From Dryococelus australis (taxonomy: Eukaryota; Arthropoda; Insecta; Phasmatodea; Phasmatidae): a DNA stretch of 64,000 nt. Below the pieces are notes generated by a model that was not told the origin of the DNA, made no database searches, and worked only from the letters and a program-made list of their open reading frames with translations. Each line of letters starts with the position of its first letter. The first letter of the stretch is position 1. Shown here piece after piece: positions 9,938 through 62,534 of this stretch. The position numbers and the translations under genes were made by a program. The stretch covers positions 62,729,251-62,793,250 of the forward strand of contig CM056994.1 in the NCBI GenBank assembly GCA_029891345.1. The letters are read 5' to 3'.

Positions 9938-11014
9938 CTAGCTGCATAGGCAGAGGAAGCTACAAAACTGCTTCTTATTGGTGGATTCCTCTGCCTCTTG
10001 GAAAGTTCTTATCAAGTTGGTTTGTGGACAATTACCTTCGGGTGTGACAACATGGTCGAGGTAATCTATGGATGTCTTGCCAAAATGGCTCTTGGACAAC
10101 TTGCAGGTAAGGCCTTGTAAATCTAGCCTCTCCAAGACTCGCTGGAGGTGGTAGCAGAGCTCATCCCACATTTTAGAGTATATGATGATGATATCGAAAT
10201 ACGCAAAACAAAATTGCCCTACAAACCAGTCAGCATCTCGCCCAAAATGAACCTCTGGAAGGTGGCTGTGCCATTCTTCAGCCCAAATGACATCACTTCG
10301 AATAGAAGTGTTTTGCCTTCCGGAATTGTGAATGCTGTATACTTCCGGCTGTATTTGCCGGTACCCTGACTGCGATTTGCCAGTACCCTGACTGCATGTC
10401 AAGAGTAATGAATATCAAAGCTTCCCTATGTCTCAGAGAATTGTTCAGATTTATGGCAGGAGGAGCGGTACGGTTATGTAGTTGAGGTTTTTGTAATTGA
10501 TGCAAAACCGTAACTGCCCAACCTTCTTCGGAACGAGGACAACACTTGAGTTTTATGGTGAGTTGGACAGTTCCACAATCCCCTGCTCCATCTCCTGAAC
10601 ACGTGACACAATTAAGTATCACCTCCTGGTGGACGCACTGTAACAGTCTTTTGTATATGGGAACATTTGAAGTTGGCCGTGCTACATGTTGGATGCTAAG
10701 CGTGGTTATCAAGTATTTGCCGGAGTGTGGCAAACTTTTGTGCATCTAGTTAGTGGTGTATATCGTTGGGGTTTATGAGAAATGTTCTGATCCCCGATAA
10801 ACATGTGCCTTTTTCCATTGTCCATCACACACTGTTGCTGGCTTATCACGGCTTCTGTGATGTCTGGAGACACTACGAATTCAGCTGTTGTGTGTGATAG
10901 TACGCCCATGTTTAAAGTCATTAGAACATCAACCTTCAGGGTCTGATCGTGCAGTGCCATTCTAACAAGGTGAGTTTGTGGGCAGAGTGATACCCTTAGT
11001 TCCAAGGTTATCAC
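9938..11014 (-). pseudogene. Gypsy protease-RT remnant
   Basis: On the minus strand, 10709-11014 looks like the protease-to-RT linker. PPAINLNNSLRHREAL and FITLDMQSGYWQIAV (near 10400-10460) are the RT finger/palm entry with the first catalytic Asp. The palm motif at about 10165-10200 reads FCFAYFDIIIIYSK; active enzymes have YxDD here, so the second Asp is lost. LERLDLQGLTCKLSKSHFGK and YLDHVVTPEGN then complete the thumb. Frameshifts separate the blocks. Confidence 0.85.
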
Positions 11015-24920: not shown

Positions 24921-25371
24921 CATGCATTTTTTCCCGCATGCTTCGATTTTTTCTAATTATGTATCGAGAACCCACTGTATATGTAACAGTAAAATGGCAA
25001 GCCACACAAAGATAAAGAGTATTTTATGTGAAACAACTGATGTAATATGTCTATTTGCAGTGGTCATAAATAATGGGGTAGTTCAGACAAGAAATGTCAC
25101 TTACTCTGCAAAAACTGTTGGATAAAATACAATATCTCTGCAACTACCACATAACCCTCCTGTAGTTTTAATTATTTTTCTAGGAAGTATTGTACAGCTC
25201 CGCTACAGTATTAGTCTAGTCAATGAAGGGGTTGTAGACAGAAATGTCGGGATGGCAAGAATTGACTTCAGGACTTTGTCTGGACTAGTTAGGAGGTAAA
25301 CATACTAAATGTCCTGGAACCTAGGATTAGAGCAAGATGAGAAGGGGAGGGAGAGAGGAAGATGATCCAGT
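24921..25371. other. No gene recognised
   Basis: AT-rich, then a purine-rich stretch (GGGGAGGGAGAGAGG) at 25340-25360. Confidence 0.5.
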
Positions 25372-25611
25372 TTTTTTTTTTGTTTTTCACTTATATCTCG
25401 AAAACTGTCAGCCAAAGCATCATAAGCACTATATACAAAATTGAAAAACATTAAATGTCAAACAAGAATATTCTTTTTTTTTTCGTATCTGTTTTAGTTT
25501 AGGAGACACACACTTGTGAAAATCACAAATTCAAAAAAAAATGTTTTTCCAAGTTTTATCATTAACTTTTCCTTTTATCTTCTTTGCCATTCAATTGAGA
25601 AGAACAGTTCT

Positions 25612-25806
25612 CAGAAAACAAGTTGTAGAGACTTAATAAAAGAGACCTATAAAATGAGTACATTATACACTATTTTAACTTCAAGAGACCAAAAGTTAGA
25701 GCAATTTGAAAATGTTGTGTTAATTCCGAGATATATGACACAAAACCGTGTATAGCAATTTCTCATTTCTTATAATGGTTATTCCATTGAAAAAATTCTA
25801 TATATG
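25612..25806 (+). repeat. Left long inverted repeat arm
   Basis: Reverse complement of this arm matches 28483-28680, including GGTTTTGTGTC and CAAATTGCTCTAACTTTTGG. Confidence 0.7.
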
Positions 25807-26099
25807 GTGTACGTACACCATAATACCTGGGGAAAAGGAATTTATATAATAAAATTAACCATTCAATGAAGTTGAATGTAATAAAAAATGAATACAATAA
25901 AATGTAATACAAAATTGAATACAAAAAAATTTATGCAAGTGCATATAAAGTGAATTGTAATTATTAAATGTAATAATAATAAATTTAATAGGAAAATTAT
26001 TAATAATAATGCATATTGATTAGTAATAACAATGACGAAATTAAAGCAATTTGCTTCTTTTAGGATGGGAGGGTCCAGGTTGAGGCTCGTGCCTTCATC

Positions 26100-28370
26100 C
26101 TCTTATGTTTTCTTCCATATTTTTGTCCAGTTCAACGAGTGTGGAAGGGAACTCAAGCTCTTCATCATCGTCATCTCATTTTCTAGTTTGCAGTTCAGAC
26201 AATTCCCGTAACAGTTGTGACGAATGGAGGAGTATTTCAGAGATGCTTTCCTGCACCCACATTTGTCATTGCTGCAGTCTTTGATGCACTGGCCAAAAAT
26301 CAATTTTAAAATTTCCTCTGGTCTTCTGTATGCACAGCTGCCCTCTCGATCGTTGGAAGTGATGAGATGTCAGGTTCTGTTTGCTACTGACTTCACAAAC
26401 ACTTGGTAGCAGTAGAGGTTCAGGGATGTCTCCTTAGCGGTCACACCATACCATCTCAAGAGAAATTTCTTCCCCTCTTCCTCAACCTGAGCATGTGTTG
26501 AGGTGGATTTTGAAAAATCTTAAGTGGCTTTATGAATGTAATGGTTATTTTGATACAGTTAAATAAAACCAACTTTGCTCTTCCTGAATGCTTCTGAGAT
26601 TATAACACAGCCTGTGAATGTGTGTAGGAACATAATGGGTTTTAGCCCCAGTTGTTCCATCTCTTTTGTGGAATATACATTTGTCTTTATTTTTTCCCCG
26701 GCCAGGGTTTACTAATAAGATGTCTCAGTCGGGTGGAGTCTTTGCCATTAGGAGAACTGCCAGATCAACATCTCCTCCAATGACAGCAACTGTGGTTTGT
26801 CCAATGGTTTGGATTTGTCGATGGCTGTCGTAACAATCAACAAGTCAGCATCACCTGGAGCTTGTCGACTCTCAATCCCATTCTCGTTAAGTTGTGATTT
26901 GAGTAGGATAATAAGCCTGCTTTTATTGTGCTCATTGGAGAAAGAGGTCTTGCTTGACAGTGATTTCAGTATTCAGATTTAAGTTTATATCTCATGACTT
27001 CGTCATCCGACACCATTGTTCCCGTTCAGCTGTATTTGTGCTGTTCGATGAGTTGGGGTATCCATCAAATACAACACAGCAGCTCCTCCCAGGATAGTAG
27101 CTCTTGATGTAGCCCTCGCAAATGGTGGACACTGTGCATCCTCTTGGCCAGATCACTTTATGCATAAGAAATCCCCCATAAACTACAATGTCAAAGTTTG
27201 ATGGGTTCCAAACATTTTTGGTAATATGAAAAAGGGTGTACATGCCTGATTTCTTTATCTTTCTCATTCTACTTTCATTGAATAAGGCTAATGGGAATGG
27301 TGCCAACTCGTATTCCAAATACATCCTCAAGTCATTGTCCACTTTTTAACTGATGGAGATTCTTTGAAAAAGGAAAGGGTCTATCGCAACAGTGTCGTTT
27401 TGGATATTGATTGATGAGGTGACAGATGACAGAGGTAGAACCCGATCTTTTCATGACGGCGTAATACCCGAAAATGGGATACCGTCTATTTCCCCATTGC
27501 CTACTTTCCAATTATGGCAGCTTCACAGAAGTTGATGATCGTACAGTCTCCCACAACTCCTGTAGCTATCAACATAATTCCACTCATTATAGGAAAGAGG
27601 GGATGATTGTCAAACCACGCTGCTAATTTGACCAATGGCGGCAATATTTCTAGTAATGTAAGACATACTAAAATTGACATGTTGCTCAGATGAGGAAAAG
27701 AGAACGCCACAGAACTCTTCCAGAGATGCACAAATGTCATGGGTCGCACTCACCTCCACAATCCACTTCTTATCACACTATCTGAGATTCCTCATCCACA
27801 TGTTACGCCAGTATTGGTTTTGAAGGATCGCATTAGCTTGGTTTTCAATGGTCATGTCTGACCACACTCCCAACCAATAGCAATCCAATCCTCCCATTGT
27901 GAAGTAATCACATTTCGTAAATTTGTGATATTCGCCTGCAGTCATTTTGGATGAAAGATCCATCATGTCCTGCACATACAGCTGACTAGATTTTGCATGT
28001 GGGAAGTGGCCTGATCCATGAAAATAGGGTATCATTCTCTTTACACAATCAATATGGGGAGACCAATCACCTGGCCATTCAGCATTGATAAGCTCTTCCA
28101 TCAAATTTACAATCTTGAAGTACTGATTCCACAACTTTGCTATTGGTCCATTTTCATCGCGCTTTTCCACTTCTCCAAACTTGCTGGCCAACATTATCAG
28201 ATATGGATTTTCTTTCAGTGAGTCTAGTATTGGAGACTGGTGGTGGTGGTGGTGGGGGGGGGGGGGGGGGATCCCTACCCGCCATTTTTTTTGTTCCTCT
28301 GGCGGGTGACTAACAGGTCTCCTTTCGTGTGCCTCCAAAGCCAGGACCGACCAAGATAAGCTCATGACAA
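26100..28370 (-). pseudogene. FEN/XPG-like nuclease with CXC cysteine cluster, decayed
   Basis: Read on the minus strand, an N-terminal block has KLWNQYFKIVNLMEELINAE and YFHGSGHFPHAKSSQLYVQD (28.1-28.0 kb). A central block has YELAPFPLALFNESRMRK near 27300. Three blocks then resemble the FEN/XPG nuclease superfamily in order. CCVVFDGYPNSSNST with TAERE near 27030-27080 is like the XPG N-region. RQAPGDADLLIVTTAI (about 26820-26860) is like the GEAEAQ block. AVIGGDVDLAVLL (about 26740-26780) is like the ED-D block. LHTFTGC near 26610 could be the start of the helix-3-turn-helix. A cysteine cluster FGQCIKDCSNDKCGCRKASL (about 26240-26300) fits a tesmin/TSO1-type CXC domain. Frameshifts and stops separate the blocks. 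A (GGT)n/G-tract at 28240-28270 disrupts the N-terminal part. I recall similar multicopy proteins in invertebrates; the nuclease reading is my inference. Confidence 0.6.
28241..28270 (+). repeat. (GGT)n followed by a poly-G run
   Basis: Several GGT units run directly into an uninterrupted G run of about 17. Confidence 0.9.
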
Positions 28371-28482
28371 AAACATACCTAAAAAGATAATTATATCCTT
28401 TAGAATTTGTTGGTGAAACCCCCCCTCCCGTGGTCACGTACCAATGTAAAAACACATGTCTTATGTACATAACTAAATACAC

Positions 28483-28680
28483 GATATAGAGTATTTTTGC
28501 AATGGAATAACTCATACATAAAAATAAATTGCAATACATGGTTTTGTGTCGTATCTTGGAATTTGTACAAAATTTTCAAATTGCTCTAACTTTTGGTTAG
28601 TTCAAGATAAAATAATGTATAATATATGTTAAAGTTCTGTTTATTTTATTGGTGAGACGTAGAACTTTAGTTTGTCACAT
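28483..28680 (+). repeat. Right long inverted repeat arm
   Basis: Inverted partner of 25612-25806. Open-frame sequence running into this arm is probably not true coding sequence. Confidence 0.7.
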
Positions 28681-28948
28681 TTATCATCTTTCGCAAGACG
28701 AGGTTGTCGCGCACCTCTTCTTACGAGAAAGTAGCAATTATAACTGCTAATTGTTTTGATGATGCACTACAAAATTTTACTCATATGGAGATAACATTCA
28801 AATTACTATAATTCAAAAGTTGTAATGTCACCGAAAGAACAAAATGTGATAAATATGACGCTTTTATTTGTACCAATGCGGGAATTACACAAACAATTTC
28901 ATTTAAGTTGAAAATCGTTAGGATTTTTTATGAACTACACTATAATCA

Positions 28949-33814: not shown

Positions 33815-36079
33815 AATCATTAGTCACAACACTTTCACTGCTTGGCAATCTAAGAGATTTCATCATCTAACAGCTGAGCTTCCTTTTGAGCATCTTCTAA
33901 AATTTTTCTTTTCTTCTCTTTTAATGATTTGAACAATTTCGGCTGATCTTTATTCTTTCCTTAAAATGTCAAGTTTCATTTTCTTCCTTTTTTTAATTGT
34001 TCCAAAGCTTCAAGGTATCTTGAATGAGCGTTACGAGCATACTGCATCATACTCTTTGTTATTTTCAGTTCGCTAATACTTCCTGCATTTCTTACACCTT
34101 CCCAAACACACCTCTGTGCGACTAAAGACTCTTCCGACTGGTTGTCAAGAAGACACTCACGATTGACCGAAAACCCCCTTTCCACAGCAACATTTCCATG
34201 CCAAAGAAGAAAAACTTTCTTCAATAATAGCATTAAATCAACTGACCCAGTATATTCGAGCACATCTTTCCAGAAGTTGTCTAAGCGTTTCTCTTGAGTA
34301 CTGTTTCATTTTTTCAATGAAAATAGTGTTCAAACAAAGTGATTCTTCGCTTTAATCTGTCTGCACAAATCCCTGTAATCCATTTGTTTTCAACAAATAT
34401 TTCCAAACAAACCTTCAGTCGCTTTGAAGTAATTTCTGTGTTTTTAGAAATTACATTCGGATCACAGAAAGATAACCCTCTAGTTAAAATAAACGTCAAA
34501 GAAGACCCATCAAGCATTTTGTTGCAGAATGCTTGCAAGCATTTCAAGCAATCTCTCTTGAAGAGGAGAATGTCTTTAGAGTTGTTATCAACCACTTTTC
34601 TAATGGTCTCACTTGCCTCATGTCCTACATCCACTTTCTTAACATCAATAAAATTTTCGCTGTTGTTTATGTTAATCTTCACAACATTCGGGGTTTTTGC
34701 CCCAGACTTCATTTTTACAAACCTGGGCATTACATTTGAGACTAGTAGTAACAGATCTCTATACAAGAAAAAAGGCATTGGCTGTTCAGATTGAAAAGCA
34801 GTCAAAAATGGCTCAACTTCTGAAGCTAGTACTTTAAAAAATGCTAACTGAGATCCTAGTATTTTATCTTCTAGGCACTTCATCAAATGGTAACTGGCAG
34901 ACACTGGTTCCTTTTTCTCTCTAGTAGCCACTTTGACATACTCTTATAAATGGTTTACAATGTCTCCAGCCCTGCTTGCAACTTCAATGTTTTGAAGCCA
35001 ACGAACTGCACAATTTTTTTTTTGGAAATGCAGTGAACCCAGAAATAGACATATAATCACTTCTCAGAGAAGGGGTATTTTTAAAAACATTATATATAGC
35101 TCTCGAAAATTCAACAATATTCCAACCTGTTGACTTGACAGCTATCTTGAAAGCATTGAGTAGGCCACAGGTACCAATATCTAAAATTACAGTATTATCT
35201 GGAGCTTGATGAAGCTCTTTCTTTAAATCTCGAAGAAACTTGATGTTTACATTGGGACCATACATTGCAACATGCAACATATGCTTCAAATTGAAGGGTG
35301 AGAGTTGCTTTCTAAACACTGCTAATAAATCAGCAGATGTAGTGTGACCTAAAAATGACGACCTCAAATACCTGCTATCAACTTCGTTTTTATCTTTGCT
35401 CCAGTATCTCACTACAATATCCATTTGTTGTGTTTAACTTATTTTATTAAGACTCCTCAAAAGATACAGCGAAGCAATCACTGTCTAATACATAATTTCT
35501 AACCTGAAGCTAAAAGTAAGGACCTAGTCCATGGACAATGGTGTATGTCATTTTTGCCCTTACAAGTGCAAATCCTTTTGCAATCTGACTATCTGGAAAC
35601 ATAACTGCAAAAATCTCAGTAGTTTTTCTAGCAGCAGACATTGAAGAATGCACAGAGCCAGATTGTAGACACCACAATATTTCTGCTTTTGTTATATTTT
35701 CTTTCACAAGAATTGTTTCCAATCCACGTTTAAGTTTATGAGGATTAAGTTTGGACAGTGATTCCACTGACGGAGTGAGAACCGGTTCATTAGCCGACTC
35801 TACTTTTTCTTCATTTACTGGTTCAAAAACAGTTTCTTTTGATGAACCTGCTGTCATCTCCTGTGAAGCTTGCTGTTTCCTCAGCATGAACACTCCGATA
35901 CCGTATGACATATCCCTACCACTCTTTGCTAAAATATGTTTTTGTCCTCTCACGTGACTTATTAGTGCTTGTTTCCCCATGTTACCCAGGCGCACAGTTT
36001 TTTTACATTTGCAAAAGATTGAAAACCTGTCTTTTCCACAAGCCACCACCTGTGATGATAAATCTGGGTCATTCAACAA
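33815..36079 (-). pseudogene. hAT-like transposase with N-terminal zinc finger, broken
   Basis: Reads from 36079 down. The N-terminal part has a C2H2/BED-like finger: CKCKKTVRLGNMGKQALISH then RGQKH. A second frame (35424 down) has QMDIVVRYWSKDKNEVDSRY with FLGHTTSADLLAVFRKQL; DIGTCGLLNAFK follows. A third (34931-34314) has YHLMKCLEDKILGSQLAFFK. The last (34263-33976) has LLKKVFLLWHGNVAVERGFS and NRECLLDNQSEESLVAQRCV, the hAT-type dimerisation block with its E-R-x-F-S core. A Lys/Glu-rich tail ends near 33815. Four frames and internal stops make it a pseudogene, though each segment is well preserved. It matches a zinc-finger hAT-like family common in insects. Confidence 0.75.
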
Positions 36080-37588
36080 CTGTGGGTTGAATTATGTTTT
36101 TTTATACTTTGAACACGACATGGAGCGAGGGAAACCAACCTGCAAAGAAGAATGAAAATGAGATGAAATGTAAATATGGCTTACATTATCATCTGTATAA
36201 TTTTTGTCTCCAAAATAAACAATAGGATTAAGTTCTAGACCTAAGTTAGGGCTACTTAAATGAAAAACCTAGGCCTAGTCCAATAAACTGTGATGCAATT
36301 TGGTAATAGTCCGTAGTTTCTGGATTGAAAGCTTCATTAAATACAAGACACAAAAATATCAAGTCGCGAAAGTCGTCATGAATCGTTTAACCATTCTTTG
36401 AACAAAAAACTTTGAGCTGTTAATATATGTAAATAACACAAAAGGGTTTTCAACTTACCGCTGCCACAAAATAATTAAAGGCACGCAATTACAAGCAAAC
36501 TCTTGAGACACTCCACGTCAGGATATTATATTGGGGTTAAATTTAAATTGACGATTTATTAAACAAAAAATAACATCCGCTGCGCTTTTGCATGTTTTTG
36601 TTCCACATTGCACTGATGCACTTCAAGTCTTCCATAAGTTACTCGATTTGCTCATATCAACTTAAAAACAAATTGAGCTTCCACTATTTAATTATGTATC
36701 ATTTAAATCAAACAATACAAAAAACTAATATAATTACATGTTTAGTTTACAGTCTCTCAGAATCGTATTTTCAAAACACTTCAGCAATAGCCATTTTATT
36801 TTGCCGGTAGATGGCGTCAGAGTTACTCATGTACATTTTCCATACAAAGTGAACATTCTTGTACAAACACCATAAATCACGAATGAACGTAACACATGGC
36901 AGGGCACATTATATTGACCTAAGTGCAACTACTAATTTTTTCCACTATCATCATTAAGTCAGTATTAATTTATTTAGTACGCCTTCTCACAGACGTTTAA
37001 ATAGTTTCCTGTTGGCATTGTCGCCATTCCAAAGTACTACACTTACGATACCATAAACTATAGCAAATTCACAAAAATTCAGGAATGAATGCCATGGCAT
37101 GGATCCAGTTATTTTCACAATCGACTAGTAAAAATCGAGAGAAGAGAGAAATGTCGATTGCGTTCTGGTTGTATATTCTGTGGTCGTGCAATGTCTATGA
37201 AACGTTTGTTTTGAATGCAGTGCGATGGAATTAAAAACATCAACAGGAAACTTAAAAATATATTTAAACTGCGGTTGGACAAATTTGTATTCTTTTATTT
37301 CTACATGACTGTACCACAGTTCTTAGAAGAATCCAGTATTCTTTCAAAATTTCACTGACTTTTCCAGGTCCATGAAATTCCCTTACTTTTCCCAGTTTTC
37401 CCTCACGTAAATATCTTCTCCTTGAACACCATTGTGAACAACTCTTACTACTATGGAAATTTGTTTTTTTTAAGTTGGAAAAATCACATTAAAAGAGCAA
37501 TCCAAACACAAATAATTGTTTACCATATGTGTGTAATCTTTGTACAACACACCGTAACTTTCCTTACATAGGCATTTAATTGAATATA
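36080..37588. other. No gene recognised, AT-rich
   Basis: Short open frames only. Sequence between the hAT-like relic and the Tigger-type element. Confidence 0.5.
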
Positions 37589-61179: not shown

Positions 61180-62534
61180 AAGACATATTACATACATTAT
61201 GTACAATACTTCAAAATCCAAATTTAGCAATCTTGGTTGAAATATATAATGAAGCATTGATAAAGATTGAGGTTATATGTATGGTCATCAATAATGAGCC
61301 ACTCAAATTTGGGAATGCCATCAACTAATCGACTAGCCACTGATCTCTTCAATATTGATTTACGTGAACTAATCATTGATGTTAATGATTTGAATGGATT
61401 TGTTCAAACAAATGAACCTAAATTACTTCCAAAACAAAAAAAACTATTTACGAAACAATTAAGCATTCAATCGCTGCTCGACAAGTGCTTTTTTGGGATG
61501 CGACAGATGGAACAGTAAAAACATTTTTAATTGCAATAATATTATAAAAAATTTGTTCTAATGGTATTATTGCTCTGGCACTTGCTTCGTCCGGAATTGC
61601 AGCAACTTTATTGGATGGTGAACGAACAGCTCATTTCGCTCTTAAATTGCCTTTAAATATTCAGTCCAACGAAAATGCTTTGTGCAACATTTAAAAAATT
61701 TCTTGCATGGCTCAAGTACTTCAGCTGTCACATTATTGTTTGGGATGAATGTACAATGGCTCATAAATATGCATTAGAACATCTAAATCAAACACTTAAG
61801 GATTTGAGAGGAAACGACAGACTTTTCGGCGGTGCTTTACTTTTATTGTCTGGAGACTTCAGACAAACATTACCCATAATACCACATTCAACATATGCAG
61901 ATGAAATCAATACATGTTTAAAATCATCATCATTGTGGCAAAATGTACATACACTAAAATTAACAACGAACCTGCGTGTAAGACTTCAATATGATTTATC
62001 TGCTGAAAGATTTGCAAAACAATTGTTGGATATTGGTAATGGAAAAATGGACTACAATGATAATACTCTTATCAATTACATTGCCCAACGATTTTTGTAC
62101 AATCACGGAAACAAAAGATGAATTAATTGACAGCGTTTTTCCTGATATAAGACAATGGTACCAAAATCATCAATGGTTAAGTGAACGTGCGATATTGGCT
62201 GCTAAAAATATTAATGATGATGCTATTAATATAAAAATACAGGACATGTTACCACGCAAGGCAAGTTACTTTCAAATCAATTGATACTGTTGTAAATGAA
62301 GATGAAGGAGTCAATTATCCCACCAAAATTTTAAACTCAACTGACTTATAAGGCATACCACAACATATATTGAAATGAAAAATAGGTTCTCCAATATTAA
62401 TATTAATGCACCCTGCCTTTGTAATGGAACGAGATTGGCTGTGCGAAAAATAACAGGCAATGTTATAGAGGCTACAATTTTGATTGGCAAATTCAATGGG
62501 GAAAATGTCTTGTTGCCACAAATTCCAATAATAC
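61180..62534 (+). pseudogene. Helitron Pif1-type helicase remnant (first part)
   Basis: FGMPSTNRLATDLFNIDLRE near 61310-61370 leads into the helicase. The Walker A region near 61505-61545 reads DATDGTVKTF where active enzymes have GGTGKT, so it is degenerate. IALALASSGIAATLLDGERT follows near 61565-61630. Walker B is intact: HIIVWDECTMAHKYALEHLN near 61730-61790. LLSGDFRQTLPIIPHST (near 61850), LKLTTNLRVRLQ and QLLDIGNGKM follow. The C-terminal blocks LSERAILAAKNINDDAIN (near 62170) and APCLCNGTRLAVRKI (near 62405-62450) are in different frames. The sequence is interrupted at 62534 by the solo LTR. Confidence 0.85.

Follow-up and report, generated by a model that had tools for sequence, protein, structure and literature searches.

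Academ transposons and the Dryococelus australis locus

AcademX elements, a lineage of the Academ superfamily of DNA transposons, encode a nuclease of the XPG kind. Their target site duplications measure 3 or 4 bp according to an excerpt of PMC10045372, as against 9 or 10 bp in AcademH, the other Academ lineage in that paper, and this difference is apparently tied to the encoded enzymes, with helicase and nuclease named in the order AcademH, AcademX. A RecQ helicase is mentioned for Academ in an excerpt of PMC3627910, and for bivalves an excerpt of PMC10294476 puts the mean length of Academ elements at 5,565 bp. Here we analyze an element in a 64,000-nt stretch of the genome of the phasmatodean insect Dryococelus australis (GCA_029891345.1, contig CM056994.1, positions 62,729,251–62,793,250, forward strand), the whole of which is hereafter called the window. 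The first-pass annotation had proposed a new transposon type at this locus, with long inverted repeats around a nuclease of the FEN/XPG fold. We interpret it, with a probability of roughly 0.86, as a cut-and-paste DNA transposon fitting AcademX, in the form of a copy that is dead, non-autonomous, and internally deleted.

This fit is one of architecture, duplication, and length, with Academ elements compared by description only. A DDE transposase encoded together with a nuclease, inverted repeats, duplications within the 3 or 4 bp range, and a length of about 5–6 kb are held in common; the window copy differs in being an internally deleted remnant. The helicase and the 9 or 10 bp duplications that the PMC10045372 excerpt gives for AcademH were not seen in the present elements. 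No helicase label was found in sister proteins among the 120 listed of 200 matches, and a crude helicase string test flagged 6 of 341 proteins. Because it fits an already known kind of transposon, the window element is ordinary, and the find is a modest one: one more decayed copy, in an insect, of a DNA transposon whose kind is most likely known already. As a by-product, it yields a family picture with young, nearly intact copies, a 3-bp duplication, and a confidently modelled transposase–flap nuclease fusion whose two active sites are conserved, and this picture makes the role of a flap nuclease in DNA transposition accessible to biochemistry.

Domain architecture of the longer relatives

The protein of the longer relatives has about 1,450 residues and comprises, in this order, two N-terminal Cys/His motifs, a DDE transposase domain, a nuclease domain of the FEN/XPG family, and a Cys-rich, CXC-like tail. 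In an alignment of 74 of 112 matches (residue numbers are those of relative P0077), D20, D191, and E436 are invariant in the first half of the protein, and D665, D706, D775, D798, D800, and D854 in the second half, where D773 is conserved in at least 90% of the rows. The relatives thereby possess the acid set of the FEN/XPG active site, i.e. the N-terminal D, the D of VFDG, two middle acids, DxD, and the D of GCD. The Cys pattern of the tail was invariant in 15 tails, and a CXC-like expression picked out 61 of 70 and 54 of 63 long proteins. Named public relatives were mostly from insects and other arthropods, with the addition of the cnidarian Dendronephthya and the mollusc Patella (best 120 of 304 in one listing). 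A more distant group included sea cucumber, amphioxus, and Nematostella, as well as two entries that bear the label of a bacterial metagenome bin (among 120 of 200 matches listed).

The family profile matched Exo1, and the predicted structure of a relative gave a strong FEN/Exo1 fold match at about 15% identity, which bears out the FEN/XPG similarity first proposed from short blocks. The present domain is set apart from the FEN1/Exo1/XPG family by this low identity, by its fusion behind a transposase domain, and by middle acids that read DAD versus EAD in Exo1. For the DDE part, a second look at the model matched it to RNase H-like folds, that of Hermes among them. Foldseek returned no significant match with this model, the sequence profile of the DDE part matched no PDB chain, and Pfam assigned DUF6589 only, in 5 of 12 members. 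Hermes is a hAT transposase, and hAT elements duplicate 8 bp of target, in contrast to the 3 bp of the present elements. Pfam searches with the broken pieces of the window copy and with the pieces of the young copies described below gave nothing above the cut-off, as did NCBIfam with three relatives, one of which had two weak 5′–3′ exonuclease matches far below it. With phmmer, one relative had no useful match to PDB chains. No CXC chain emerged when PDB sequences were searched with a profile of the Cys-rich tail, and no CXC domain appeared in the Pfam listings.

According to the first-pass annotation, the FEN/XPG fold itself replaces the RNase H fold as the catalyst of transposition. The conserved FEN-like active site and the strong fold match are in its favor, and so is the absence of the first two D's of the DDE triad from 16 of the 20 nearest-copy loci, some of which nevertheless multiplied. 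The relatives with long frames, however, have the invariant D, D, E domain ahead of the FEN domain, with its second-look match to RNase H-like folds, and the deleted copies can be explained as derivatives because copies with all three DDE residues share the genome. On account of the DDE domain of the longer relatives, we reject catalysis by a FEN fold alone and regard transposition by the FEN fold itself as highly improbable. What holds of the early proposal is that a FEN/XPG-like domain is encoded in a transposon; what it had missed in the window is the WSDMTIEN block, the region of the catalytic E of a DDE transposase.

Structure of the window copy

The window copy comprises the following features:

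25209–25211, plus strand: TAT, where the 3-bp target duplication lies on the left, with the length taken from other copies
25212–25811, plus strand: complete left terminal inverted repeat of about 600 bp, starting TAGTCTAGTCAATGAAGGGG (also given as TAGTCTAGTCAATG)
26160–28194, minus strand: decayed coding remnant (tblastn and open frames), approximately residues 735–1458 of the 1460-residue relative P0134
~26193–26293, minus strand: Cys-rich CXC-like cluster, CIKDCSNDKCGCRK (open frames and tblastn, position counted by hand), its cysteines conserved in relatives
26560–27345, minus strand: remnant of the FEN/XPG-like nuclease domain, with VYGG for IDGG, VFDGYP, DAD, GGDVDL, and GCV for GCD
~26607–26615, minus strand: TGC block (this and the next three positions counted by hand in open frames)
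~26750–26779, minus strand: GGDVDLAVLL block
~26832–26861, minus strand: APGDADLLIV block
~27055–27072, minus strand: VFDGYP block
27841–27864, minus strand: WSDMTIEN, block of the catalytic E of the DDE (RNase H-like) domain, aligned to P0077 E436
28240–28270, minus strand: CCA/poly-C tract, about 45 bp from the start of the coding match and near the internal deletion
28478–28680, minus strand: inner part only of the right terminal inverted repeat, clear at 28478–28626 and weak to about 28680

The blocks reported earlier do lie in the proposed order within one decayed protein, which runs on the minus strand and whose open frames are interrupted by stops and frameshifts. Searches by tblastn with P0077 matched 28194–26680 (E 5.9e-45) and 26963–26193 (E 2.7e-16). 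Of the DDE residues, only the E region is retained. Aligned to relatives, the window copy has Y for D665 and V for D854. The Q listed for it at both middle FEN acids in the residue table comes from an alignment that slipped between frames; APGDADLLIV is what stands in the open frame.

In a self-comparison, 25659–25811 paired in inverted orientation with 28478–28626 (155 columns, 82% identity, E 9.5e-35), and on the right arm a weaker similarity, judged by eye from the alignment, reaches beyond 28626 to about 28680. The inverted arms of about 195 bp seen at first are therefore real, but comparison with other copies showed them to be the inner portion only of terminal repeats of about 600 bp. 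Likewise, the initial span of 25372–28805 was wrong at both ends. The left end lies at 25212, in agreement with the end seen in other copies, and the left repeat is, over its whole length, 81% identical to that of copy L018. On the right, the outer two thirds of the repeat (about 400 bp) are missing; with the L018 repeat as query against the whole window, only the left repeat and the right remnant were found, all other rows being short with E ≥ 0.4. The duplication of the window copy has no pair because its partner was lost together with the right end.

Dispersed copies and target site duplication

Many dispersed copies with ends in common occur across the D. australis genome. Among the 20 nearest-copy loci (L017–L036), eight had inverted self-matches of 373–614 bp (L017, L018, L019, L021, L022, L023, L027, and L035), the inverted pair of L034 was split into three pieces, and self-matches of the remaining loci were absent, short, or unrelated. 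The first two D's of the DDE triad were present in L022, L026, L029, and L033; no match to them was found in the other 16 of the 20. In the window copy and in L017, L018, L019, L020, L023, L034, and L035, the match to P0134 begins at residue 717–736, while L033, the eighth of the eight loci compared, matches from residue 320 onward. Since the deletion is common to several loci, a deleted derivative itself multiplied; three of the deleted copies, L019, L023, and L034, carry exact 3-bp duplications.

Four young elements (L009–L012) are 5.93–5.98 kb long by their end coordinates, and their repeats, about 600 bp in length, open with TAGTCCAG. All three DDE residues are present in each, and so are all seven FEN acids, save for E in place of D773 in L009. 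Their coding frames are split into at least two open frames, the longest of 799 aa, and no copy was seen to be fully intact. A further 39 repeat ends of this family are 97–98% identical to the query end G000 (40 of 618 candidates were scored, the query itself included), and on account of this identity we consider the young family recently active.

The two ends of the element are unlike. Past TAGTCCAG, one of them has a different, longer stretch ahead of the shared repeat, as noted at L037–L044 (the ends of the four young copies) and at L017, L018, L023, L034, and L035. Within the young family, L037 and L043 carry this longer version 5′ of the gene and L039 and L041 carry it 3′ of the gene, a pattern suggestive of an inversion of the interior through recombination between the repeats.

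For the duplication counts, the element was taken to begin at TAGTCC. Only six loci from L017–L036, those with both ends found, were entered. From the young family, 20 of 40 listed copies were tried; 16 of these were left out as they had no second end at full-length distance, and the four with a second end at the expected distance are the four that carry coding sequence. Flanks of 3 bp were identical in 5 of 10 two-ended copies (0 of 90 crossed pairs) and in 3 of 4 of the further young-family set (0 of 12), which gives 8 of 14 overall against 0 of 102 crossed pairs. A 4-bp duplication was exact in 0 of 14, and, with three boundaries tried, the two-ended copies had no exact flank pair at any length above 3 bp other than the 5-bp reading given below. 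Copies that generally lie outside inverted repeats and lack target duplications would have been the opposite of what these data show.

These data also bear on a host gene, or host-derived cargo (the latter raised at the outset), inside chance inverted repeats. Some public relatives are indeed annotated as host proteins, for example under Tesmin/TSO1-like CXC names, or lie within chimeric thrips gene models. Dispersed copies sharing the same ends, with exact target duplications in 8 of 14, speak against this, and we give it practically no chance.

Classification and putative mechanism

The following observations weigh against parts of this account or were set aside in it. The HIV reverse-transcriptase rows in the DDE fold match cover residues 318–417, the connection domain and not the RNase H domain. 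Few long proteins (6 of 70 and 0 of 63) matched all of the DDE and FEN motif expressions, in disagreement with the alignment; we judged these expressions too strict and relied on the columns of the 74-row alignment. A 5-bp duplication, with ends one base shorter, was exact in 2 of 10 copies, both in A or T runs.

The element might instead represent a separate, undescribed superfamily with DDE, FEN, and CXC-like parts that is merely AcademX-like. The comparison with Academ by description and the sole Pfam assignment to DUF6589 would leave room for this, and literature searches on DUF6589, on Academ joined with XPG, and on the combination of DDE, FEN, and CXC-like parts found nothing with the term combinations used. 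The pairing of DDE and nuclease, the 3-bp duplication, and the length of 5.93–5.98 kb, next to the bivalve mean of 5,565 bp in the PMC10294476 excerpt, nevertheless fit AcademX, and we consider a separate superfamily unlikely. Still more speculatively, such a superfamily could depend on the flap nuclease as an obligatory part of transposition, acting on hairpins, flaps, or gaps at the ends, with the amplified nuclease-only half-elements selected for supplying it; we give this little credence.

Under the AcademX interpretation, we propose a mechanism that builds on what was observed, namely how the parts are ordered, which active-site residues are conserved, the repeats, the 3-bp duplication, and the shared deletion. 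The DDE domain would cut and join the element ends with a 3-bp stagger, and branched or 5′-flapped DNA, whether at these ends or in the donor gap, may be trimmed by the flap-nuclease domain. DNA binding presumably falls to the Cys/His motifs and the Cys-rich tail. Deleted copies would have spread with protein from full-length or fuller copies, and the window copy probably lost its right end and then decayed.

Other open frames in the window

Elsewhere in the window, the open frames at 1139–2466 and 9938–10745 resemble, by eye, pieces of retrotransposon polymerases, and one at 61657–62121 resembles a piece of a PIF1-type helicase as in Helitrons. Three adjacent long open frames of one protein lie on the minus strand at 34314–36091.
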